NCBI GenBank assembly: GCA_020047775.1 | Contig: JAIFNK010000166.1 | Span: 1 to 11,421 of the forward strand | Length of the DNA stretch: 11,421 nucleotides | From: Akkermansia sp. | Lineage (GTDB): Bacteria; Verrucomicrobiota; Verrucomicrobiia; Verrucomicrobiales; Akkermansiaceae | Direction of reading: 5' to 3' | Part shown: positions 740 to 11,421 of the stretch, piece by piece | Numbering within the stretch: position 1 is the first letter of the stretch | Layout: every line of letters starts with the position of its first letter | Translations under genes and position numbers: made by a program | Notes under the pieces: model-generated | Told to the model about the DNA's origin: nothing | Database searches by the model: none | What the model saw: only the letters and a program-made list of their open reading frames with translations

Positions 740-1555
740 ATGGTCTCGCGCGTGACGGACTTTTCCTTAACATTTCTTGGCACGGGGACCTCGGTGGGGG
801 TGCCGGTGATTGGCTGCGATTGCGAGGTCTGCACTTCGGAGGATCCCCGGAACAACCGGACGCGGTCGTCGGTGCTGGTGCGGGCGGGCAATCAGACGCT
901 GCTGGTGGATTCCGGCCCGGACCTGCGGATGCAGGCGCTGCGCGAGGGGCTGCGGGAAATCGACGCGATCATTTACACCCACGCCCACTTGGACCATGTG
1001 GCGGGTTTTGACGAGTTGCGGGCGTTTTGCTGGCGGCGCACCGAGCGGCTGCCGATGCATGCGACGGAGAGTTGCATGGAAATTTTGAAAACGATGTTCG
1101 CCTGGGCGTTCTCCGACGAAGTGGACACCATCGGTTATGTCAGGGCGGGTCCACGCATCATCGACGGGCCGTTTTTTTATGGCGATCTGAAGGTGACGCC
1201 GCTGCCCGTGGAGCACGGGGCGGTGGAGACAATCGGTTATCTGTTCGAGGTGCCGGGCGCGCGGAGCCTGGCGTATCTACCGGATGTGAAACGGATCCCC
1301 GCCGACACCCGGCGGCTGCTCATGGATGTGGATGTGCTGGTGGTGGACGCGTTGCGGACGTGGGAGCATCCCACGCATTTCTCGCTGGCAGAGGCGCTCG
1401 CAACGGTCGAGGAAGTGCGGGCCAAGGAGACCTGGCTGACCCATCTGAGCCACGAGTATCACATCGATGAAATTTCCAAAACACTGCCGCCGGGGGTGCG
1501 GATGGCATGGGACGGGTTGCGGATTTCAATGAATCATGCGCCGGGTCTTGCATGA
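740..1555 (+). CDS. PhnP-like MBL-fold metal-dependent hydrolase
   Basis: This 271-residue protein belongs to the metallo-beta-lactamase fold, closest to the PhnP/RNase Z-like branch that cleaves phosphodiesters. Residues 13-31 carry GTGTSVGVP followed by a Cys-x-Cys-x-x-Cys cluster (C26, C28, C31), which in PhnP holds a structural zinc. The catalytic metal motif HxHxDH is THAHLDH (H81, H83, D85, H86). Further ligands are likely H159 (PVEHG), D182 (YLPD) and the histidines of THLSHEYH (H235, H238). The open frame reaches back to 641, but those codons read through the palindromic repeat and look non-coding, so I start at the ATG at 740, just before the first beta-strand. It is the first gene of the MBL/TIGR03790/DUF2851/thiS run. 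PhnP acts on ribosyl cyclic phosphate in phosphonate breakdown, but no other phn gene is seen, so the substrate remains open. Confidence 0.88.
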   Translation: MVSRVTDFSLTFLGTGTSVGVPVIGCDCEVCTSEDPRNNRTRSSVLVRAGNQTLLVDSGPDLRMQALREGLREIDAIIYTHAHLDHVAGFDELRAFCWRRTERLPMHATESCMEILKTMFAWAFSDEVDTIGYVRAGPRIIDGPFFYGDLKVTPLPVEHGAVETIGYLFEVPGARSLAYLPDVKRIPADTRRLLMDVDVLVVDALRTWEHPTHFSLAEALATVEEVRAKETWLTHLSHEYHIDEISKTLPPGVRMAWDGLRISMNHAPGLA

Positions 1556-1583: not shown

Positions 1584-3173
1584 ATGAGATTCCTGATCCG
1601 GATTGTGTTTCTGCTGACGGCGGCCTCCGCAGTGTCGCGCGCGGCGATTTCCGCGGAATCGGTGGCGGTGCTCTACAATTCCACGGTCCCCGAATCACGG
1701 AAACTCGCCGAGTTGTATTGCGACGTGCGACGCATCCCGGCGGAGAATCTCATCGCGCTGGACATGCCGGCCACTCCGGACATTTCGCGGGCCAGTTATG
1801 AAAAGTCGATTTTGAAGCCGCTGCGCGCGGAGTTCGAGAGCCGGAAATGGTGGAAACGCCAGACGGATGCGGGCGGCGTGACGCTGCCGGTAGTTAACCG
1901 GATTCGCGCGCTGGTCACGATGCGGGGTGTGCCGCTGCGGATCCAGTCGGTCCCGAAACCCGCACCCAAGCCCGGAGATCCGCCGGCCGACCCGCAGAAT
2001 CCGGTCGCCGGGCGCGACGATGCGTCGGTGGATTCCGAGTTGGCGATGTTCGGGGTGGAAGGGCTGCCGTCGGACGGGATTCTGCAAAACAAGTTCTACA
2101 AGAGCACCAAGCCGATCGGGGAAATGAACCTGCCGTTTCTGGTCCTCACCGCCCGGATTGACGCGCCGACCTTCGCAACCTGCGAGCGGATGATCCGCGA
2201 TGCGGTGGAGGTCGAGAAAACCGGCTTGTGGGGCAGGGCGTATGTGGACATCGCCAACAAGTTCCCGCAGGGCGACCAGTGGCTGGAGGCGGTGGTCATC
2301 GCCAACGCCGAGGCCGGCATCCCGACGGTGGTGGACCGCTTCAACGACACGCTGCCGAAAAACTATCCGATGACCGACGCCGCCTGTTATTACGGCTGGT
2401 ATGACTGGAGTCTCAGCGGTCCCTTCCTGAACAGCCGCTTCCAGTTCCGCAAGGGGGCTGTCGCGACGCACCTGCACTCGTTCAGCGCCGAGCAAATGGC
2501 CGATGCCGGGAAGAACTGGTGCGGCGGTCTGTTGGAAAAGGGAGCCGCGGTGACGGTTGGAAACGTCTATGAGCCTTATCTCCACCTCACTCACGATTAT
2601 GCCATCCTCCAGCAGCGGCTGTTGGAGGGATTCAGCTGGGGGGAAGCCTGCTGGATGGCGATGCCGGTGACCTCGTGGCAGGGCGTGGTGTTCGGCGATC
2701 CGATGTACCGCCCCTATCTGAACCTCGCCGGCGGCGGGGTGAAACAGGAGGGCGACATCCCATACCGCGCCTTGCGGGCGGCGGCGCTTGAGTGGAAAAA
2801 AAATCCTCTCGAACGTCAGAAACAGTTGGAGAAAGCGGCGGGCCGGATGAACAGCGGCGTTCTGGCGGAAGCGCTGGGGCTTGAGTTTTTACTACTCAAG
2901 GATCCCGCCGCCGCATCGAAGTGGTTCCACACCGCCAAAGGCTACTACGTGCCTGTGGAAGACAAACTGCGGCAGGATTTCCATCAGATCGCCATCGACC
3001 GCGCGGCGAACCGCAAGGATCAGGCGGTTCGCGACCTGCGGGACGCGCAGACGCGCTACGGGCCGATTCCCGAAGCCGAGGCCCTGAAGGGCTGGCTGGA
3101 TATCCTCGATCCGCCGCCGCCACCACCCGCCGATCCGACGAAGCCGCCGGAATTGAAAAAAACCTTGAAGTGA
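1584..3173 (+). CDS. TIGR03790 family secreted protein
   Basis: The 529-residue product matches the TIGR03790 family of unknown function. Recognisable blocks are the N-terminal AVLYNSTVPESRKLAELYC, then RIPAENLI, the middle CYYGWYDWSLSGPF, GAVATHLHSFSA, and the closing GNVYEPYLHLTHDY and GVVFGDPMYRPY. The start at 1584 begins with a basic, hydrophobic segment (MRFLIRIVFLL...SRAA) that looks like a Sec signal peptide, so the protein is probably exported. An in-frame ATG 16 codons upstream would place non-hydrophobic residues ahead of it and overlap the previous gene. After the conserved domain (to about residue 395), residues 400-510 are helical and TPR-like, followed by a proline-rich, lysine-ending tail. 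It follows the metallo-hydrolase by 28 bases and precedes DUF2851 by 12, which suggests one transcript. I know of no established biochemical role. Confidence 0.88.
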   Translation: MRFLIRIVFLLTAASAVSRAAISAESVAVLYNSTVPESRKLAELYCDVRRIPAENLIALDMPATPDISRASYEKSILKPLRAEFESRKWWKRQTDAGGVTLPVVNRIRALVTMRGVPLRIQSVPKPAPKPGDPPADPQNPVAGRDDASVDSELAMFGVEGLPSDGILQNKFYKSTKPIGEMNLPFLVLTARIDAPTFATCERMIRDAVEVEKTGLWGRAYVDIANKFPQGDQWLEAVVIANAEAGIPTVVDRFNDTLPKNYPMTDAACYYGWYDWSLSGPFLNSRFQFRKGAVATHLHSFSAEQMADAGKNWCGGLLEKGAAVTVGNVYEPYLHLTHDYAILQQRLLEGFSWGEACWMAMPVTSWQGVVFGDPMYRPYLNLAGGGVKQEGDIPYRALRAAALEWKKNPLERQKQLEKAAGRMNSGVLAEALGLEFLLLKDPAAASKWFHTAKGYYVPVEDKLRQDFHQIAIDRAANRKDQAVRDLRDAQTRYGPIPEAEALKGWLDILDPPPPPPADPTKPPELKKTLK

Positions 3174-3185
3174 TCCGACTCTGAA

Positions 3186-4559
3186 ATGACTTACGGTTTT
3201 CTGTTGGAATCGATTTGGCACCCGCCGCTGATGTTCGAGGAGTCCGGCTCTAACGGGCTGCCGCCGGAGCTGGAGTTGCAGGCCTTGTGGTTTGCCGGCG
3301 CCTTCGGGCGGGACTTCCGCACGACGGGCGGAAACAAGGTTAGAATCGTCCAGTTCGGTGAGTGGAACCGGGGAGCGGGACCGGACTTCATCCAGGCCGC
3401 GGTCGAAATCGACGGGGAGCTGCGGACCGGGCCGCTGGAATTGGACCCGCTGGCGGGTGACTGGGAAGCACACGGGCACGGGGTGAATCCCGCGTTCCGG
3501 GAGGTGGTGTTGCACGTGGTTTTCCAAACCGACGCCCGAAGGATTTTCACCCGGACCTGCGAGCACGGCGAGGTGCCGCAAGTGGTCATTTCCGCGACCC
3601 AGTTGGCCGACGCGCTGAACCGCCCGCAGCGCGAGGTGGCGATCGCCCATCCGGGGCGATGCGTCGCGCCGCTCAAGGGCCTGCCAACCGGCGCCATCGG
3701 GCGCCTGCTCGACGAGGCGGCGGTCTATCGGGCGGGAAACAAGGCGTCCCGCTGGCTGCGGACCGCCGACGCGCACGGGCGGGATGCCGCCTTGTTTCAA
3801 GCGACCGCCGAGACCTTGGGATACCGGGGAAATGCCCTCACGATGCGGCTTCTCTCGCAGCGCGCTCCGCTCTCGCTGCTCAAGTCCGAGGCCTCCGCCG
3901 CGGAGGCGATCCTCTTCGGCACCGCCGGATTCCTCTCGTCGGACCTGCACGAACTGGCACCGGCCGACACCCGCGACTATCTGCGAGGTTTGTGGGACAC
4001 CTGGTGGAAAAACCGGGCGTGTTTCGAGTCCACGGGCGGGCGGGTGATTCCCTGGAAGACCCACGGACAGCGGCCGGCAAATCACCCCCACCGCCGGGTC
4101 GGGGCGCTGACCGCACTGGCGGCGGTCTGGCCGCAATACCGGCGGCTTGCACTTGCCAGGCCATTCTCCGCGAAGCCGTTGATCGATTTCCTGCAATCGC
4201 TCGAGCACGGATTCTGGTCTTACCGGCACACGCTCACCTCGGCGGCCTCGCCCAAGCGGGTGGCGTTGTTCGGAAAAACGCAGGCGCTGGAACTGGTGGC
4301 CAACCATCTGGCACCGCTCGCGATGCACGAGGAGGGCATGAGCTTCGCGGTCTATCACAAACTGCGGAACTCCGCCGCCAACGACAAGGTGAAGCGCTGC
4401 GGGCTGCGGCTGTTCGGCTCCGCCAAGGCGGCCCAGCCGTGGATGCGGCGGGTGTGCCACCACCAGGCGCTGCTCCAGGTCTATCAGGATTTCTGCCTGG
4501 AGGATTTCACCGACTGCAAGGACTGCCCTTTCCCCGAACAACTCTCGCAATGGCGCTGA
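3186..4559 (+). CDS. DUF2851 family protein
   Basis: The 457-residue product matches DUF2851, a conserved family of unknown function seen in Bacteroidetes and Verrucomicrobia. The diagnostic stretch is near residues 55-120: GEWNRGAGPDF, then an acidic block (GPLELD, DWEAHGHG), then the strand EVVLHVVFQTD. The C-terminus carries a cysteine cluster (C in RRVCHH, FCLEDF, then DCKDCPFPEQL), which could bind metal. The central part is helical. In many family members the acidic block reads closer to VEIH; here it is LELD, a possible substitution worth aligning. The ATG at 3186 is 12 bases after the TIGR03790 stop, and the stop overlaps the thiS start (TGATG). A very long minus-strand frame covers the same region but is a codon-bias shadow. 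Confidence 0.85.
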   Translation: MTYGFLLESIWHPPLMFEESGSNGLPPELELQALWFAGAFGRDFRTTGGNKVRIVQFGEWNRGAGPDFIQAAVEIDGELRTGPLELDPLAGDWEAHGHGVNPAFREVVLHVVFQTDARRIFTRTCEHGEVPQVVISATQLADALNRPQREVAIAHPGRCVAPLKGLPTGAIGRLLDEAAVYRAGNKASRWLRTADAHGRDAALFQATAETLGYRGNALTMRLLSQRAPLSLLKSEASAAEAILFGTAGFLSSDLHELAPADTRDYLRGLWDTWWKNRACFESTGGRVIPWKTHGQRPANHPHRRVGALTALAAVWPQYRRLALARPFSAKPLIDFLQSLEHGFWSYRHTLTSAASPKRVALFGKTQALELVANHLAPLAMHEEGMSFAVYHKLRNSAANDKVKRCGLRLFGSAKAAQPWMRRVCHHQALLQVYQDFCLEDFTDCKDCPFPEQLSQWR

Positions 4560-4759
4560 TGAAAATCCAACTGAACGGAAATCCGCATGAAATCGAAGCG
4601 CCGCTGACGGTGAGCGCCTTGTTGGAGAGCATCGGCTTCGGCGACAAGCCGGTGGTCGTGGAGCTGGACGAACAGGCGCTTTTTCCCCGGGAATTTCCCA
4701 CCGCGATCGTCGCGGACGGCGCCCGCGTGGAGATCGTGGCGCTCGCGGCGGGTGGTTAG
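4559..4759 (+). CDS. thiS: Sulfur carrier protein ThiS
   Basis: The 66-residue product is a beta-grasp ubiquitin-like sulfur carrier of the ThiS type. Its C-terminal glycine receives sulfur as a thiocarboxylate and donates it to thiazole formation on ThiG in thiamine biosynthesis. Visible features are the opening strand KIQLNG, the helix LTVSALLESIGF, the strand VVVEL, LFPRE, and the end DGARVEIVALAAGG with the required terminal Gly-Gly. The ATG at 4559 overlaps the DUF2851 stop as TGATG, so translation is probably coupled; an in-frame ATG at 4550 would add three residues and is the alternative. The usual partner thiG does not follow, and the next 360 bases hold only a palindromic repeat. MoaD is a less likely alternative given length and motifs. 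Confidence 0.87.
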   Translation: MKIQLNGNPHEIEAPLTVSALLESIGFGDKPVVVELDEQALFPREFPTAIVADGARVEIVALAAGG

Positions 4760-4819
4760 ATTTTTTGACAAATGCAATTGTCGAAACCTCCTACCGCTTG
4801 TGCCACCAAGAGGTTGTCT

Positions 4820-5060
4820 GGAGTTCGCGCTTTAGCGTGCTCTTTCCCAAAGACAAGCTGAAGATGCTGTCGGGAAAGTCCATGAAGTCCCCAAAGGCAG
4901 GGATCGACCTCCGGGCGGTCCGCGCGAATGGGTGGCGAATGGACCGTCCATGGCCAGATTACCGAGCCTTTCATGGGCGGATTCATTCGCCATCCATTCG
5001 CAGGACCGGTGCGGAGACCGGTCCCTGCCATTTCCCGACAGCCTCTAAAGCTTGGACTCC
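4820..5060. repeat. Large composite palindromic repeat downstream of thiS
   Basis: The 360-base gap between thiS and the next gene contains no convincing gene and is largely this element. Inverted pairs, from outside in, are: GGAGT (4820-4824) with 5056-5060; GCTTTAG (4829-4835) with 5045-5051; GCTGTCGGGAAA (4866-4877) with 5031-5042; GGCAGGGA (4896-4903) with 5022-5029; and an 18-base pair with one mismatch, 4924-4941 with 4984-5001. Each arm holds its own hairpin: about 4901-4921, and a perfect 8-bp stem GGACCGGT (5003-5010) with ACCGGTCC (5017-5024). From GGCAGGGA to the end of the 18-base block the arms align over 46 bases without gaps. The left arm carries extra bases (about 28 near 4836-4865 and about 17 near 4878-4895), so it looks decayed or composite. 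Confidence 0.8.
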
Positions 5061-5120
5061 GCCAGGTTGCTAGACACATGTCCCCCAATTCCAATTCGGA
5101 CTTCTATTTGGGCAAACGGT

Positions 5121-5681
5121 CTATGCCGCCCGCCGCTTCCAGAGGATCCTGCCGATGAGGATACCGATGACCAGCGCGACCACGCCACCCAGATAGAGGC
5201 CGTTCTTGGCGGCGGCGAGGATCGGGTTGTCGAGCACGTTCATGGAGATGTGATAGGCGGCGAGCAGCCACTTGCCGTCCTGCTTGACCAGCGTGGCGGT
5301 CCAGCGGCTTTTCAGTTCGTAGCTCTTCCCTAGCAGGTGATATTCCCCCACGGTCTCGCCGAAGGAGATCCCGGTGTCGCCGCCATGCAAAATCGTCAGC
5401 TCGTCCGGAGTCGGCGGCACCTTGTAGCCCTTGAAGGAATCCTTCCCCATCCGCTCGAAGAAGTCCTTGAGCCCCTTTTGCCCGCGGCAGACCTCGGAGT
5501 TCTGCCAGGTGATGACGGCGTCGGGATGCACGTGCTTGATGACGCTGTCGATGTCGCCCTTGGTGATGGCGTCGATGATCGTGAGCCGCAAGGCCCGGAG
5601 TTCCTCGTGGGCGGGATCTTCCGCGGCGGTTACGGATCCCAACGTCAGAAAGACCATCAGCAGTTTTACGAACATTCGCAT
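5121..5681 (-). CDS. NTF2/SnoaL-like protein with signal peptide and C-terminal membrane segment
   Basis: This 186-residue protein begins with a probable signal peptide (MRMFVKLLMVFLTLGSVTAA, about 20 residues). A cone-shaped NTF2/SnoaL-like (DUF4440-like) domain follows, about residues 25-150. Family signs are the early helix with AITKGDIDSVIKHVHPDAVITW, the middle GKDSFKGY, and the closing strands RWTATLVKQDGKWLLAAYH. Residues about 160-182 form a hydrophobic segment (LYLGGVVALVIGILIG) followed by LWKRRAA, so the domain is probably held at the membrane on the outer side with a short basic cytoplasmic tail. It is the last gene of the sulfotransferase/P450 run, 30 bases after the P450. Members of this fold are enzymes or ligand-binding proteins, and the specific role cannot be assigned. 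The ATG at 5675 is an alternative start two codons in. Confidence 0.75.
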   Translation of the reverse strand: MRMFVKLLMVFLTLGSVTAAEDPAHEELRALRLTIIDAITKGDIDSVIKHVHPDAVITWQNSEVCRGQKGLKDFFERMGKDSFKGYKVPPTPDELTILHGGDTGISFGETVGEYHLLGKSYELKSRWTATLVKQDGKWLLAAYHISMNVLDNPILAAAKNGLYLGGVVALVIGILIGRILWKRRAA

Positions 5682-5711
5682 GGTGGGAGACTGGGCTAAC
5701 CGGATTTTAGT

Positions 5712-7070
5712 TCAATCCCGAACTTGGGCGCTTCTCGGGTGTGGCGTCATCATCATGCCGTGCTTCGACCGGAGGGTGATGTCCGGCAGCGGCTCCACCG
5801 GGTGGCCGGGGACCAGGTCGAAGTGGAACGACTGCATGACCATGGCCGTGATCAGCTGCGCCTCCAGCATGGCGAACTCGCTGCCAATGCAGGATCGCGG
5901 ACCCGCTCCGAAGGGAATGTAAGCCGCGGGGGGAGGGGACTCGAAGCGGGACGGATCAAACGCTTCGGGACGATCCCAGAACGCCGGGTGGCGGTGCAGC
6001 GCATACGGGGATATGACCACCGCCGAGCCGGCGGGCAGCGTGTAGCCGCCGATGACGTCCTCTTCAATCACGCGCCGCTCGATGATCCAGATCGGCGGAT
6101 AGAGCCTCATCGATTCCTGGATGACCGACTTGGTGTAGGTGAGCTGCGGCACGTCTTCGAGCGTGGGTTTCCTTCCGCCGAGCACCCGGGTGATTTCCTC
6201 GTAAAGCCGACTCTCGACCTCGGGGTGTCGGGAAATCAGATAGAACGTCCAGGTCAGCGCGTTGGCGGTGGTCTCGTGGCCGGCGAGAAGGAAGGTGATG
6301 GTTTCGTTGCGCAACTGGGAATCATCGAGTCCGGCGCCGGTCGCGTCGTCGCGGACCCGCATCAGCATGGATAACAGGTCGAGATCCGGATCGCCGGCCT
6401 CCTGCGCCCTGCGGTGCCGGGCGATGATCCGATAGACGACCTTGTCCACCTCGGCGAGTGAGCGGCGGAAGCTGCGGTTCGCCGGAGTGGGAAGCCAGTC
6501 CGGCCAGTTGACGAGGTTTCCCAACCGCCCGAACACGTGGGGCAGGATCACCCGCATCGCCTTTTCCACCGCCGCCGCGTCTTCGCCGGTGTTGAAGCTG
6601 AAAAGCGTCTGGCCGACGATGGAATACGTCAGTCGCGCCATTTCCGAGGAGATGTCTAACATTGTCCGGCCCTGCCATGACCGGATCGCCGCCTCGGTGG
6701 CCGTGGTCATCTGTTCCGCGAAGCCGATGATCTGCCGGTGGTGGAACGCGGGCTGGTCCATGCGGCGTTGGCGTTTCCACGCCTTGCCATTGCAGGTGAG
6801 CAGGCTTTCCCCCGTCACCGCGCGGATGGCGGCGGAGCTGCGGGTGTTTTTGTCGTAGTTGGCGGCCCGCTTTTGGAGCACTTGCTCGACGTGGTCCGGA
6901 TGATTCAGCAGGTGGACGACCTGGTTTCCCAACCGGCAGCGGACGATGTCGCCGCAGGTGGCGGCGGATTCCATGACCAGGCCGAGCACGTCCCGGCGGA
7001 ATTCCCGCAGGTTTCCCAACAGGAAATGGCCGGGCGGCCCGGGTGCCTTGCGCTTGGGAAGAGGGTTCAT
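5712..7070 (-). CDS. Cytochrome P450
   Basis: The 452-residue product is a haem-thiolate monooxygenase, which hydroxylates or otherwise oxidises a lipophilic substrate with electrons from a separate redox partner (none encoded here). Signature elements are complete: a proline-rich N-terminus (APGPPGHFLLGN), the C-helix WKRQRR (98-103), the I-helix oxygen-activation motif AGHETT (263-268), the K-helix ExxR (E319-R322), the FDPSRF motif (371-376) and the haem loop FGAGPRSCIG with C394 as thiolate ligand. There is no membrane anchor, so it is probably soluble. The frame stays open for 183 codons upstream, but that part reads antisense-like, arginine/proline-rich residues inside the sulfotransferase gene. 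The ATG at 7070 gives the standard length. It starts 2 bases after the sulfotransferase stop, so expression is almost certainly coupled. The motif set resembles the CYP4/CYP102-like bacterial branch; the substrate is unknown. Confidence 0.95.
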   Translation of the reverse strand: MNPLPKRKAPGPPGHFLLGNLREFRRDVLGLVMESAATCGDIVRCRLGNQVVHLLNHPDHVEQVLQKRAANYDKNTRSSAAIRAVTGESLLTCNGKAWKRQRRMDQPAFHHRQIIGFAEQMTTATEAAIRSWQGRTMLDISSEMARLTYSIVGQTLFSFNTGEDAAAVEKAMRVILPHVFGRLGNLVNWPDWLPTPANRSFRRSLAEVDKVVYRIIARHRRAQEAGDPDLDLLSMLMRVRDDATGAGLDDSQLRNETITFLLAGHETTANALTWTFYLISRHPEVESRLYEEITRVLGGRKPTLEDVPQLTYTKSVIQESMRLYPPIWIIERRVIEEDVIGGYTLPAGSAVVISPYALHRHPAFWDRPEAFDPSRFESPPPAAYIPFGAGPRSCIGSEFAMLEAQLITAMVMQSFHFDLVPGHPVEPLPDITLRSKHGMMMTPHPRSAQVRD

Positions 7071-7072
7071 TT

Positions 7073-8188
7073 TCAAATCGGATAGTTCCAGGTGTCGAAA
7101 CTGCGTTGCCATTCGCGGGCGATTTTCTCCCGGATCGGCGGCTCCAGCTCGTCGAACCGGTTCTTGCGGTAGCCGGAGAGGGAATCGACGTATTCCTGGA
7201 GCCCGGGCTCGAAGCTGTCGAAGCCGTCCAGATCCAGTTTTTGATAGAGCTCCCTCATCATCTGCATGGGAGCGCGTTCCAGGTCGTCGAAGCGGATCTC
7301 GTGGAACCGTCCCGCGGGAATCAGGTCGCGCTCGGCGAAGAACGCGTCGTGCAGCCGGGTGTAGCGGCGGATGATCCGGTCGTCGATCAGTTCCGTCTCC
7401 GGTTTCTGGAGGTAGCTGAACCACGTGGCCGTGTCGTAGTAGTGCCGGCACGACCTGAAGACCTGATAGGGATCGCGGTGGATGTGCACAAACCGGGCGT
7501 CGGGGAAAAGTTCCAGCAGCAGCCGGATCCGCGCGGTGTGGGGAGGGGACTTGAGGACCAGCGGGCGGCCGTATTTGAAGCTCAGTTTTTTCAGGAATCC
7601 GGTGAACGCGGATTTCCACTCGTCGATTTCCTCCCGGGGCACACCGCGGAAGTCGAGGTAGCGCGCATATTCATCCTCCCTGCGCGGGAAACTGACTCCC
7701 AGATAGAGAGATCGCAGGCTCATCAGGCAGGGGGCGAACTCGTCCTCCTGCGGCGACTGGAAGCCGAGAGCCATGCCGTCCATCGGCCGCGTTTTCGGGA
7801 CCATCCAGGCGAAGCGCCGGGTGTTGGTTTCCTCGGTGCAGAGGAAAGTGTGCGGATTGACGACCTGATAGGTGTTGGCGAAGGCGAACTGCCGGGTGTC
7901 CCGCGCGAGCAGGTTGTGCAGATGGGTGGTGCCGGACCGCCAGTGCCCGAGAACGAACAGCGGTGGTTGGATCTCGGTCGCTGCGACCCGCTCGCCGAAC
8001 TGCCGCTGCTCCTTCCGGCGGAAGTGGGAGTTCATGGCGTTGACGGCCGTGATGAACGCCGCCCGGTGCCAATACGCCGGATCCACGGCGAACCGGTTCC
8101 CGCGGAGGAGTCGGAGCCAGTCACCGGTGGTGATCCCGGCGAGGTAATTGTTGGCGATGCTCCAACGGTGTTTCAGCGGTCCAGGCAT
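7073..8188 (-). CDS. PAPS-dependent sulfotransferase family protein
   Basis: This 371-residue protein matches the Sulfotransfer_3-type family, which transfers sulfate from PAPS to a hydroxyl or amino group. The 5'-phosphosulfate loop is GHWRSGTTH (81-89) after the strand PLFVL. KSPPHT (213-218) and the 3'-phosphate segment HIHRDPYQVFRS (235-246) follow in the expected order. The block SPQEDEFA (about 145-152) is typical of this bacterial subgroup. No signal peptide or membrane segment is evident, so it is probably cytoplasmic. It heads the minus-strand run and is 2 bases from the P450 start, so the two likely act on the same molecule, with the P450 perhaps creating the hydroxyl that is sulfated. 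That order is inference. No clear Shine-Dalgarno precedes the ATG at 8188. The divergent 156-base region to the tRNA should contain its promoter, but I found no convincing one on this strand. Confidence 0.9.
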   Translation of the reverse strand: MPGPLKHRWSIANNYLAGITTGDWLRLLRGNRFAVDPAYWHRAAFITAVNAMNSHFRRKEQRQFGERVAATEIQPPLFVLGHWRSGTTHLHNLLARDTRQFAFANTYQVVNPHTFLCTEETNTRRFAWMVPKTRPMDGMALGFQSPQEDEFAPCLMSLRSLYLGVSFPRREDEYARYLDFRGVPREEIDEWKSAFTGFLKKLSFKYGRPLVLKSPPHTARIRLLLELFPDARFVHIHRDPYQVFRSCRHYYDTATWFSYLQKPETELIDDRIIRRYTRLHDAFFAERDLIPAGRFHEIRFDDLERAPMQMMRELYQKLDLDGFDSFEPGLQEYVDSLSGYRKNRFDELEPPIREKIAREWQRSFDTWNYPI

Positions 8189-8257
8189 TCGGGGCAGGGA
8201 AAAAATCTGTCATAACCCGCCAAGCCGTGCAATCCCGCGTCCCGAATCCTTGTCGTT

Positions 8258-8285
8258 TCGACATTTCGCCGATCTTGGGTATTTT
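8258..8285 (+). promoter_or_regulatory. Candidate promoter for tRNA-Asn
   Basis: TCGACA (8258-8263, 5 of 6 with the -35 consensus), a 16-base spacer, and TATTTT (8280-8285, 4 of 6 with the -10 consensus) lie about 60 bases before the tRNA. The match is modest and rests only on spacing and position. Confidence 0.35.
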
Positions 8286-8344
8286 TCCCTTGCCACAAGA
8301 CGTCCGGGAATCCCAAGGTCCGCCCGCGTCCGAAAGGAGCAAAG

Positions 8345-8419
8345 TCCGGCGTAGCTCAGCGGCAGAGCGGGTGACTGTTAATCACTAGGTCCGTGGTTCG
8401 ATCCCACGCGCCGGAGCCA
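8345..8419 (+). tRNA. tRNA-Asn (anticodon GTT)
   Basis: A complete cloverleaf can be folded. The acceptor stem is TCCGGCG (8345-8351) with CGCCGGA (8409-8415). The D stem is GCTC/GAGC (8354-8357, 8365-8368). The anticodon stem is 8370-8374 with 8382-8386, including one G-T pair at its outer end. The anticodon loop CTGTTAA places GTT at 8377-8379, so it reads AAC/AAU. The T stem is CGTGG/CCACG around TTCGATC (8397-8403). The discriminator is G8416, and CCA is encoded at 8417-8419. It sits between the sulfotransferase run and the decayed restriction-modification region, and tRNA 3' ends are common integration sites for islands. No second copy of the 3' end was seen in the window. Confidence 0.97.
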
Positions 8420-8526
8420 TTTAGAATCAGCATGTTATGGCTGAAAAAGAGATCCTTGATTGGCCGGTGTAGGCACTTTGCTGCATCGTGGAGTTCTCAA
8501 GCGGCTTTTGCAGTGATCGAAGAGCT

Positions 8527-8631
8527 TCAATACCCCCAGCTCTCGTGCCGGACGGGCAGCAGGTTCAGGGTTTGGCGGTGGGACTGCCACTTGGGCATGA
8601 ACTGGTTCATGAGGGCGAGTGAGATGATTTT
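8527..8631 (-). pseudogene. Remnant: C-terminus of YgjP/M48-type metallopeptidase
   Basis: About 34 codons ending in a proper TGA (8527-8529) read as SLALMNQFMPKW, then SHRQTLN, then ending HESWGY. From memory this resembles the extreme C-terminus of YgjP-like/M48 (DUF45) zinc metallopeptidases, where a segment of the form LMxxxMPxW...RxxLN...H..WxY closes the protein. The catalytic HExxH part is absent. Genes of this peptidase often follow hsdR in type I restriction-modification loci, which fits the fragment immediately upstream. It is in a different frame from the hsdR fragment and overlaps its stop by two bases. I see nothing convincing between its stop and the tRNA (8420-8526). The call relies on a short match supported by context. 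Confidence 0.6.
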
Positions 8632-8812
8632 AGCCGGCCTGTATCAGGTGGGCGCTGAGCAGGCCATCGTCGATATTGCTGTTGGCGGCGCGGTCGGATC
8701 GGTCGCCGAGGTAGCGATATTTCAGCTCGTCGCGGAACAGGGCGATGATCCGGTTCTGGGTGGCGCGTTCGGGTTTGCCGATCTGAAGGGTTGATTTTCC
8801 CTTGGTGAGCCT
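8630..8812 (-). pseudogene. hsdR: Remnant: N-terminus of type I restriction subunit HsdR
   Basis: Sixty codons between two stops read a segment strongly like the start of one HsdR subfamily: KSTLQIGKPERATQNR, then IIALFRDELKYRYLGD, then ANSNIDDGLLSAHL. The full subunit is roughly 1000 residues and provides the ATP-dependent translocase and nuclease of a type I system. Here only the first block remains: no nuclease, DEAD-box or helicase domain is present anywhere in the window. The frame ends at TAA (8630-8632), right where the peptidase-like tail begins in another frame, so this looks like one side of a deletion junction. Upstream, an in-frame TAG (8813-8815) separates the segment from an ATG at 8851, so even the start is damaged or was elsewhere. 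It lies downstream of the HicA-like gene on the same strand, the usual position for hsdR in such loci. Confidence 0.82.
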
Positions 8813-8873
8813 CTAACCAAGCGTTGTCCGGCGGGTGAAATTCGACTTCATGCCGTGTGTTTCGGGTCTTTTG

Positions 8874-8898
8874 GCCAGTGAAACCTATACCCACTGGC
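8874..8898 (-). terminator. Hairpin after the HicA-like gene (weak terminator candidate)
   Basis: GCCAGTG (8874-8880) and CACTGGC (8892-8898) form a 7-bp stem with an 11-base loop, beginning 7 bases beyond the stop of the HicA-like gene. No T-run follows on the minus strand, so it could equally be an mRNA-stabilising or processing structure. Confidence 0.35.
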
Positions 8899-8905
8899 AA
8901 TTTCC

Positions 8906-9193
8906 TCAGAGTTTTCCGGCCTGAACGAGGAGCTTCTCGTAATCCTCACGGGAAAGCGGACAGTCCAACAGGTCAAGAAACTGCTTTTTCGTCAGGCCAC
9001 ATTGCTTGGCCATTTGCGCCAGGAGGCTGTCGTCGATGTCGAAACTGCGGCCGTGACTGGTTTTCGTCGATGCGCGGGCCTTGGTTCCTGCCAATGACAG
9101 ATAGACGAAGTAATTGTGGTCCGCTCCCGGTTTGGTGGGCATGAAACCCTTGCGGGTAAGCCCGGTTTCGACTTCGGATTTATCGCGTGGCAT
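8906..9193 (-). CDS. Small HicA-like protein of restriction-modification loci
   Basis: The 95-residue product begins MPRDKSEVETGLTRKGF and continues with DHNYFVYLSL, KTSHGRSFDI and a helical end (LLAQMAKQCGLTKKQF, then CPLSREDYEKLL). The order helix-KGF, H-x-Y strand, then SHG strand and helix resembles the double-stranded RNA-binding-like fold of HicA mRNA interferase toxins, and the histidine of the SHG turn or of DHNYF could be the catalytic one. The usual HicA G-S-H-x-x-Y box is altered, so toxin activity is uncertain; it may be a divergent accessory of type I systems. I chose the ATG at 9193 because translation from 9265 would run through the previous gene. The two genes overlap by 14 bases (9180-9193), which suggests coupled translation. 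No HicB-like antitoxin is seen, unless the overlapping upstream protein has that role. A hsdR remnant follows. Confidence 0.65.
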   Translation of the reverse strand: MPRDKSEVETGLTRKGFMPTKPGADHNYFVYLSLAGTKARASTKTSHGRSFDIDDSLLAQMAKQCGLTKKQFLDLLDCPLSREDYEKLLVQAGKL

Positions 9194-10292
9194 GAGCTTC
9201 GGGAGGCACGAGTTGGCGGAGTTTTGTTTTGAGTTCACGGGCTGGCGGGGACAGGATGGCATCATCCTCGCTGCCGTATTCCAGCCACAGCATCACCAAC
9301 TGTTCGCGCAGTTCGTTCCACAGTTCGGCACGGGTGTGGGCGAAAACATCAATATCCAGTTCGGGGTGTTCCAGCCGCAGGAGTTGTTCGTCCTCGCTCA
9401 AAAACGGCTCCAAGCGCAGTGGCTTGGTGAGCACGGCACCGCGGGTGAACTCCGTGATCACGAACGGTGAGAGATCCAGTTCCTCGATGCGGGAAACCTC
9501 CACGATCTGCCGGGGGTGGCCGTCCTCGGCATCGACCACTTGGCCGGTCACTTGAATCAGATCCCGCCGGTTCTCGAACAACATGGGTTCAAGCGATTCG
9601 TCGTAGAGGCATTCCAGCGTGCGCCCCTTCGGGGCATAGAGCAGGCTGAGTTTGTGCTCGGAGAAGGAAATCGACAGGAGTTGTCCTGTGATGGTGCGGA
9701 TGCTCTGGCGGGGTTCCACCGGGCGGAGCACGGTCTCGATCCGGGCGGAGAGCGCATCATCCAGGCGGATGGGAGGTCCGACACAGTTCTGAAACTCGAA
9801 GGCGTAGCCAGCGCCGGGAGGGGGAGCCATGCTGCGGAGGCATTCCAGCATGCGCACACGCAGGCGGCCGTCTGCCACGAGCCCGATGAGGCCTTGCTCG
9901 TCCCCATCCAGAGTGGCGTGTGAGAAATTGTGAACCAAGCCCATCACCCCGGCGACATTGCCGGAGGGAAGCAGGCTGCGGCTGAGATCACCCACGCGAC
10001 CGGCCACCTTGAAGCTTCCCGCTACGGGAGGGCTACAGTGCAGGGTGTATTTGCGCTGGATTTCCCCGGAAACCCGCACGCGCTGGCGCACGGTGCGGTT
10101 CTCAACGGCCAGGGCGCTGAAATGAATCAACTGCTGCAAGCCTTGAAGTCCCTGCATCAGCAGGGCGACCGGAACCTCGTTCCCTCCGTCCTCGGGCAGG
10201 ATGCGGAACTCAATCTGGTCGGGATGGGGCGACTCGGACATCGCGGAACTGGTAGCAGGTGGAATTTGTCCTGCAAAGGGTATTTCACTCAT
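9180..10292 (-). CDS. Conserved protein of unknown function in a restriction-modification locus
   Basis: I do not recognise a named family for this 370-residue protein. It is soluble-looking, without signal peptide or membrane segments. After a low-complexity start (about residues 1-22) comes IEFRILPED, a helix with a repeated GLQ (LLMQGLQGLQQLIHFSAL), then beta-rich segments with many valines (TVRQRVRVSGEIQRKYTLHC, SFKVAGRVGDL). Near residues 210-290 another beta-rich part includes DLIQVTGQVVDAEDGHPRQI, which could be a small barrel. The C-terminus is acidic and helical (LDIDVFAHTRAELWNEL...MLWLEYGSEDDAILS). A second ATG at 10241 is an alternative start. The stop overlaps the HicA-like gene by 14 bases, and the RhuM gene lies 149 bases upstream on the same strand. 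Position suggests an accessory or antitoxin-like part of the locus; that is inference. Confidence 0.7.
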   Translation of the reverse strand: MSEIPFAGQIPPATSSAMSESPHPDQIEFRILPEDGGNEVPVALLMQGLQGLQQLIHFSALAVENRTVRQRVRVSGEIQRKYTLHCSPPVAGSFKVAGRVGDLSRSLLPSGNVAGVMGLVHNFSHATLDGDEQGLIGLVADGRLRVRMLECLRSMAPPPGAGYAFEFQNCVGPPIRLDDALSARIETVLRPVEPRQSIRTITGQLLSISFSEHKLSLLYAPKGRTLECLYDESLEPMLFENRRDLIQVTGQVVDAEDGHPRQIVEVSRIEELDLSPFVITEFTRGAVLTKPLRLEPFLSEDEQLLRLEHPELDIDVFAHTRAELWNELREQLVMLWLEYGSEDDAILSPPARELKTKLRQLVPPEAHATR

Positions 10293-10441: not shown

Positions 10442-11421
10442 TCATGGCTGATCCTCCTTTTGCGGTGGCAGTTGTTTGATCATGCGGTCGAAGTCGGACT
10501 CGAAAAGCCGGTCCTGGACGATGCGGTATTTTTCAAACTCGCTTTCGGCGTGGGCCTTGGCCAGTTCCGCCGTCACTTTGCCGGCATCTTGTAAAATTTC
10601 ACGATCCCAGAGCTGGAGGAATCCGCTCAGGCGTTTTTCCCAGTCCTCCATGGTCATCGGGATTTTGCGCATGGCCTGCATTTCGGCCATGTCGAGGTAG
10701 GCGGAGACAATGCGCTGCATTTGCCCAAGTTCGGAATCGGAGAGGTAGTTCTTGGCGATGGAAACGTCGTAGCGCTGGATTTTTCCTTGGGGCGCGGCTT
10801 CCCAACTGGTCAGCCCCATGTTCTCGTGCTTGTGGTCGGCGCGATCCACGATCACCTCCGCCGCCGTTTTGCCATGTACGGCGTAGTGCATCTTGTTCTG
10901 GACTGCGCCAAAAAACCGCTTGGTGGCGGTGGCGGATGAGTCGTAATCCAGCGCGGTAGCGTAGATGTCGGTGACTTTCTGGTAAAACTTGCGCTCGGAG
11001 AGGCGGATTTCCCGGATTTTCTCGAGTTGGCGCTCGAAAAACCCGTCCGTCAGAGTGCCGCCGTGTTTGAGTCGCTCTGCATCCATGGTCCAACCCTGGA
11101 TCGTGTAATCCTTGACGATCTGGTTGGCCCACTTGCGGAATTGCACGGCGCGCTCGTTTTCGATTTTGAAGCCCACGGCAATGATTGCTTGCAGGCTGTA
11201 GTGCTCAACGGAGCGCTGAACCTGGCGGCTGCCTTCGGTTTGAACGATTAAGTATTGCTTAACAGTTGCCACCGGATCCAACTCGTTATCGCTGAAAATG
11301 CGCTTCAGGTGCTGGTTGATGGCAGGGATGGAGACATCGTAAAGTGCCGCCATCATCTTCTGTGTGAGCCAGACGTTTTCATCTTCGTAACGCATTTCAA
11401 CGCTGGCCTCCGAGTCGCCTC
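10442..11421 (-). CDS. RhuM family protein (5'-partial)
   Basis: The product matches the RhuM family (virulence protein RhuM, Pfam RhuM), first described in a Salmonella pathogenicity island and often found beside restriction-modification or mobile genes; its biochemical role is not established. Signature stretches are RYEDENVWLTQKMMAALYDV near the N-terminus (a helix-turn-helix-like segment), SVEHYSLQAIIAVGF, ERAVQFRKWANQIVKDYTIQG, then the middle ATALDYD and FFGAVQNKMHYAVHGKTAAEV. The C-terminus is helical and charged. The first ATG inside the window is at 11395, but the frame continues to the edge with residues GDSEASVE that belong to the usual family start, so the gene begins outside the window. 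It is the most upstream visible gene of the minus-strand restriction-modification run. Hits of this family beside hsdS/hsdM would predict those genes just beyond position 11421. Confidence 0.88.
   Translation of the reverse strand, partial: GDSEASVEMRYEDENVWLTQKMMAALYDVSIPAINQHLKRIFSDNELDPVATVKQYLIVQTEGSRQVQRSVEHYSLQAIIAVGFKIENERAVQFRKWANQIVKDYTIQGWTMDAERLKHGGTLTDGFFERQLEKIREIRLSERKFYQKVTDIYATALDYDSSATATKRFFGAVQNKMHYAVHGKTAAEVIVDRADHKHENMGLTSWEAAPQGKIQRYDVSIAKNYLSDSELGQMQRIVSAYLDMAEMQAMRKIPMTMEDWEKRLSGFLQLWDREILQDAGKVTAELAKAHAESEFEKYRIVQDRLFESDFDRMIKQLPPQKEDQP

Follow-up and report, generated by a model that had tools for sequence, protein, structure and literature searches.

The locus raises the question of how the beginning of a type I restriction gene came to run into what looks like the end of a metallopeptidase gene, and of what became of the system to which the two belonged. 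The window analysed here is an 11,421-bp stretch of DNA from Akkermansia sp., the whole of contig C312 of a draft genome (3.06 Mb in 337 contigs, ~57% complete). An earlier reading made from the letters alone (the sequence-only reading) had proposed that a single deletion of 3-4 kb cut into both hsdR and a YgjP-type gene following it; comparison with relatives bears this out and puts the deletion at ~3.5 kb. The minus strand carries, in order, rhuM, p370, p95, a 73-bp element, the hsdR piece, the YgjP piece and a spacer, followed by a tRNA-Asn gene on the opposite strand:

10442..11419, minus strand: rhuM (Pfam Virulence_RhuM, E 6.2e-106), frame open to the window edge
9180..10292, minus strand: p370, an intact conserved protein, paired with p95
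8906..9193, minus strand: p95, an intact HicA-like small protein, overlapping p370
8825..8897, minus strand: 73-bp element just upstream of hsdR, between p95 and hsdR
8633..8812, minus strand: hsdR relic, the N-terminal 60 codons, with TAA directly after at 8632-8630
8619..8632, minus strand: deletion junction, placed by blastn against relatives' loci and by spacing comparison
8527..8618, minus strand: YgjP-family metallopeptidase relic, the last 29-30 codons and the stop
8420..8526, minus strand: spacer of 107 bp from the YgjP stop to the tRNA 3' end, containing ATGCAGCAAAGTG
8345..8419, plus strand: tRNA-Asn (GTT), convergent with the operon (ARAGORN)

The hsdR half is open over 60 codons (8812-8633, minus strand) and then meets the TAA. 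That it is the N-terminus of HsdR, as first proposed, is confirmed by a PADLOC REase_I match (E 3.9e-8, profile positions 4-51 of 1034) and by 44-80% identity to the HsdR N-termini of relatives in tblastn (the exception, L047, is 93% identical in a match of 27 residues only). Pfam and NCBIfam profile searches gave no match for this 60-residue piece. It has the N-terminal sequence that marks HsdR of the hsdR-ygjP subtype of type I operon; the complete protein with its SWI2/SNF2 motor and nuclease parts is not there. No in-frame ATG, GTG or TTG is found between the upstream stop and the junction, and since there is no in-frame start and a TAA follows codon 60, translation of the hsdR half is very unlikely.

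The peptidase side has an open frame of 38 codons (8643-8530, minus strand) that differs from the frame of the hsdR half. The homologous part is only ~29-30 codons, shorter than the ~34 originally suggested, and its last 29 residues are encoded by 8616-8530 (minus strand). Direct comparison with YgjP C-termini gives 40-82% identity over these 29-30 residues, which settles the nature of the tail in favour of the proposed peptidase; identity is 60-82% by tblastn in nine loci of the same genus (the L080 match spanning just 17 residues), and most loci match right up to the last residue before the stop. The Pfam YgjP-like match of the 38-codon frame is sub-threshold (E 0.1, profile positions 188-205 of 207), and NCBIfam and PADLOC returned nothing for this half. 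Thus a family search of the two translated halves identifies HsdR through PADLOC, and YgjP through an E of 0.1 in Pfam that is secured by locus comparison. At the level of sequence the assignment of both halves rests on PADLOC and on comparison with whole loci, family searches being weak for pieces so short. HExxH is the zinc motif of the peptidase; the relic, which starts at ~residue 209, past the VVHELxH stretch of relatives, does not contain it. PF01863 finds no other YgjP in the same genome.

The intact arrangement is known from other genomes. A contig search with the hsdR relic gave 44 loci (44-93% identity in the best segment). A YgjP tail lies downstream of hsdR in 37 of these 44 independently found loci, 36 of them at standard spacing, so the pairing is not chance; in the window, the same-strand YgjP peptidase directly downstream of hsdR is represented by its tail only. 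With whole-protein queries, a near-full-length HsdR is followed within 0-120 bp by a near-full-length YgjP in 36 of the 44 loci (including L043, whose HsdR match is spread over two frames), which upholds the expectation that in intact loci of this type a peptidase gene follows hsdR. The contig ends at most ~0.4 kb past the last hsdR match in L009, L025, L044, L047, L048 and L050, and L029 and L039 are truncated. Within the genus, G029 (L072) has an intact hsdM-hsdS-hsdR-YgjP operon adjoining a tRNA gene. Its HsdR has HSDR_N, SWI2/SNF2 and T1R_D3-like domains, and its peptidase, like that of G018, is YgjP over its full length by Pfam (E 3.9e-56 for G029, 1.3e-56 for G018).

These loci also give the missing length. 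In blastn against relatives' loci, hsdR DNA homology extends to 8631 and YgjP homology begins at 8618 or, in one relative and with a gap, at 8622; ~8-12 junction bases are matched by neither side. The joined points are 13 bp apart in the window; in the 40 loci measured the median distance is 3,535 bp, and 38 of them fall at 3,506-3,695 bp (the exceptions are L073 with 2,496 bp and L039 with 404 bp), the 40 being those with both segments among 83 loci, copies of the window left out. The microhomology that was to be looked for at ~8630 did not materialise: none is assignable at the junction in the alignment to relatives. Differences fall most often at third codon positions in 15 of 15 comparisons (46-71% of differences), the pattern that protein-coding DNA on either flank of the scar would show; as the relatives' genes are coding too, it says little about age. 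That the two halves form a real short fusion gene was considered and rejected, since they are in different frames and no start codon is present.

The best explanation, to which we assign a probability of about 0.92, is that a type I operon at tRNA-Asn suffered one ~3.5-kb deletion that fused hsdR to the end of YgjP, both ends now being pseudogenes. An hsdM-hsdS-(cargo)-hsdR-ygjP restriction-modification operon would have been lodged at the 3' side of the tRNA-Asn gene, and the deletion would have joined codon 60 or 61 of hsdR to ~codon 209 of the peptidase gene, with no more than a short filler at the junction. With it would have gone the motor and nuclease parts of HsdR and the active site of YgjP, and what is left of either gene would be a pseudogene end. 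With motor, nuclease and peptidase active site gone, the system cannot restrict DNA; the predicted disappearance of the restriction nuclease is thereby upheld, HsdR having collapsed to 60 codons without a start. The event was probably a single one, with end joining or replication slippage a likelier cause than homologous recombination, and hsdM and hsdS would lie, or have lain, beyond the contig end. Two or more nested deletions would give the same appearance.

That such an operon occupied this site can be seen in G306 of the same genus (L138), which is syntenic with window positions 797-1403, 1659-4692 and 8308-8616 at 70-72% DNA identity. At the orthologous tRNA-Asn it has HsdR residues 606-1051 (its contig starts there) and an internally broken YgjP (5-58 and 93-238); an hsdR-YgjP operon therefore once stood at the site. 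Window 8467-8616 is also 77% identical to G036. Elsewhere too hsd-YgjP tails have a tRNA gene at 108-132 bp, tRNA-Val in G029 and tRNA-Met in G036 and G035. The tRNA position is common, not universal: a tRNA was found in 3 of 8 loci, all in the same position, and in 3 of 12 loci of a further scan (three of the 12 also belonging to the set of 8; L141 was covered, L143 was not). In that scan L138 has the tRNA in the same position, L137 has a tRNA-Asn convergent with its YgjP fragment at a distance of 428 bp, and L135 has a tRNA-Met on the opposite side of the relic. In five loci, and within the stretches of sequence covered, 13-30 base substrings of the tRNA's last 45 bases had no second exact copy that would mark a duplicated attachment site.

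Some further observations concern the site itself. By eye, ATGCAGCAAAGTG is exact in the YgjP-tRNA spacers of the window, G036 and G035 (L074, L077) and has one change in that of G306; it occurs beside both tRNA-Asn and tRNA-Met. The tRNA-Asn gene and its left flank are common to the window, G001, G011, G013 and G034, and the sequence after tRNA-Asn differs between G001 and G013. A segment with P450 and sulfotransferase genes (window 4760-8270) is absent between left flank and tRNA-Asn in G001, G011, G013, G034 and G306, and for this reason looks like an insertion in the present genome. After tRNA-Asn, G001 (L081 566-1708) has an HTH protein and a DNA-ligase-like protein, phage-like by eye, which makes the site a likely hot spot of integration.

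Upstream of the scar, the sequence-only reading had the accessory genes surviving apparently intact. This stands for p370 and p95. As members of the operon, however, the three genes are not usual: a search of the 44 hsdR loci, which extend up to 10 kb upstream, returned nothing for rhuM, p370 or p95 at E <= 1e-3. RhuM corresponds to PDC-S05 in PADLOC, aligned from profile position 26; its gene has probably lost its 5' part to the contig end. The p370 family has at least 149 proteins at E <= 0.001, itself included; Pfam, NCBIfam and PADLOC give no family for the window's p370, and 5 of 33 members touch DUF7946 (best E 0.0032). There are 59 homologues of p95, and PF07927 HicA_toxin is matched by 6 of the 26 family members scanned, the window's p95 being without a Pfam match. 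Together, p370 and p95 (8906-10292, minus strand) form a conserved two-gene module, a candidate toxin or defence pair. A 10-kb Geminocystis plasmid, pGM3709_06, carries a p370 homologue (32% identity over 61%), and the 95-residue neighbour of that homologue resembles p95 by eye.

The 73-bp element bears on how these genes came to be there. In G320 (L140 11191-11119) it is 92% identical and just upstream of hsdR; in L009 (8841-8908) it is 90% identical and sits ~1 kb upstream of hsdR, with hsdM on its other side; elsewhere in the genus there are weak partial matches only, in 4 of 73 genomes. Since two other hsd loci have the element as well, rhuM-p370-p95 would, to judge by sequence, probably be cargo of the hsdS-hsdR slot. 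Alternatively, the site may have gone through successive deletions and replacements at a tRNA hot spot, with rhuM-p370-p95 coming later and never having been in an hsd operon. The lack of the three genes in all 44 hsdR loci, of p370 in the other genomes of the phylum that were sampled (0 of 239) and the differing content after tRNA-Asn in G001 and G013 are what this has in its favour. It nevertheless appears rather unlikely, since the recurrence of the 73-bp element at hsdR in G320 and L009 makes the p95-hsdR border look like an hsd operon border, and the available text of PMC12255303 describes the hsdS-hsdR interval as a potential hot spot where pairs of this sort settle.

The sequence-only reading had suggested that a methylation-only system could have been left. 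Loss of HsdR alone leaves a working methyltransferase in type I systems, and hsdM and hsdS could survive just past the contig end as an active methylation-only system that has shed restriction; that p370 and p95, the genes upstream of the scar, look intact is in keeping with this. (HsdM2S is the methylating complex, according to the available text of PMC12255303.) We regard such survival as unlikely. Neither hsdM nor hsdS is found within the window, whose contig ends inside rhuM, and the recovered, 57%-complete genome has no hsdM of the hsdR-ygjP subtype. It has eleven N6_Mtase matches, and its best HsdM is only 37-40% identical to that of G029, over residues 3-460; for the HsdM segment of relatives that starts at residue 1 the figure is 67-83% in 30 of the 44 loci, and in the remaining 14 no segment of this kind lies within reach. 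With ~43% of the genome missing and the contig ending in rhuM, the absence of hsdM proves little. Elsewhere, HsdM is detected only at 749-798 in L136 (G019:C361, whose contig begins at that point) along with HsdS only from 542, at 945-972 only in L135 (G317:C219), and not at all in the 20-kb locus L039; hsdM is therefore not regularly spared. The segment after tRNA-Asn in G013 is partly found on contig C298 of the present genome, one putative flank, which has no hsd match and thus neither supports nor excludes a surviving hsdM/hsdS.

Scars of a similar kind recur. A scan of 73 genomes of the genus (its own included) with full YgjP, with a lower cut-off of 50% identity, gave 17 close loci: 8 nearly full length (one of them the query), 2 split (G306 and G308:C31, with two matches each) and 7 fragments, which cover the following YgjP residues:

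G035: 147-238
G317:C219 (L135): 141-222 (starting at 129 by tblastn)
G019:C90: 176-238
G023: 202-238
G019:C361: 201-238
the window: 209-238
G323: 149-173

All seven are without residues 1-128, and fragments with the N-terminus only number 0, the window itself being among the seven, found because of its tail, and short N-terminal fragments possibly being harder to detect. G013 has an additional 17-residue YgjP tail, outside the count of 17. In G019:C361 (L136 1017-3391) an MqsA/M78-like match (1-196) runs into the YgjP match from 201, overlapping and in another frame; from 1586 onward this locus is 94% identical to the intact locus of G028 (L076 2659-4463), with no DNA-level alignment upstream, so that only one flank is common. 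HsdR lacks 514-873 in G018 and stops at 138 in G308:C31 (YgjP then following in two frames). Less clear-cut are G036, with hsdR matches on two contigs, G317:C132, with an HsdR match in two frames near residue 40, and G308:C252, which has YgjP without an HsdR match. Outside the genus, Zoogloea ramigera NBRC 15342 (L039 10004-10647) has an independent scar, with HsdR 13-109 joined out of frame to YgjP 124-238.

Tentatively, and with considerable doubt, the hsd-YgjP operons of the genus might be seen as fast-eroding, often tRNA-anchored islands in which deletions tend to take hsdR together with the peptidase core and spare the YgjP tail; this would fit HsdR and peptidase forming a functional unit, with cargo (here rhuM and the p370-p95 pair) outliving the restriction enzyme. 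If true, the peptidase would be useless or costly once HsdR is gone. Both genes are whole in G029, G028, G320 and G308:C231, which runs against a simple decay rule.

That an assembly artefact joined distant parts of an intact locus at 8630 is highly improbable even for a draft metagenome assembly of 337 contigs and 57% completeness: the junction is 2.8 kb inside the contig, 8527-8812 has a single match in its own genome, the hsdR piece is startless, a similar scar is present in the record of a named Zoogloea strain, and the downstream flank of the G019 fragment is 94% identical to the intact G028 locus. A full-length hsdR of the subtype elsewhere in the genome, which had been named as a finding that would speak against a scar, was sought; none is among the matches listed, where other HsdR-like proteins are at most 37% identical.

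The locus is a case of ordinary restriction-operon decay; it adds one more example to a process already known, and gains some interest from the recurrence of similar scars. It is a clean natural example of restriction loss, the nuclease and its companion peptidase having been removed and the gene ends kept as a marker. The scars recurring in one genus, together with the Zoogloea record, form a set that can be used to ask how often restriction goes before methylation, and whether there is a tie between HsdR and its little-characterised YgjP/M48 partner.

A limited search for papers on YgjP/M48 peptidases with restriction-modification and hsdR loss found none on hsdR-YgjP scars, and the nearest comparisons are as follows. 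The Zoogloea locus has, like the window, an HsdR N-terminus fused out of frame to a YgjP C-terminus with few bases between; its breakpoints and host differ, and its 20 kb contain no HsdM match. In Staphylococcus aureus JSNZ restriction was likewise lost by deletion in hsdR, although the available text of PMC12554148 mentions hsdR only, whereas here hsdR and a peptidase gene are both affected. The G029 operon has the same order as the window, with HsdR 70% and YgjP 60% identical to the relics, and ends 108 bp from the tRNA 3' end, the tRNA being tRNA-Val in place of tRNA-Asn; it and the 36 near-complete loci differ from the window in having near-complete genes and different cargo or none.

The closest described parallel is the RRDM island (RptR-RMS-DarTG-M48) of E. 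coli E2348/69. As far as the available text of PMC12255303 goes, a metallopeptidase gene follows hsdM-hsdS-[toxin/defence pair]-hsdR there, the plan proposed here as well, and its hsdS-hsdR interval is described as a potential recombination hot spot and a site for defence systems. That peptidase is called M48 in the same text, which does not name YgjP, so that its likeness to the window's YgjP is by description only. The RRDM island is reported there as intact and active against phage; in contrast, only the ends of hsdR and of the peptidase gene are left in the window, the cargo would be rhuM-p370-p95, and the contig stops at 11421, short of any rptR, hsdM or hsdS. The p370-p95 pair, with the 73-bp element at its hsdR border, may be a counterpart of the island's toxin/defence pair.
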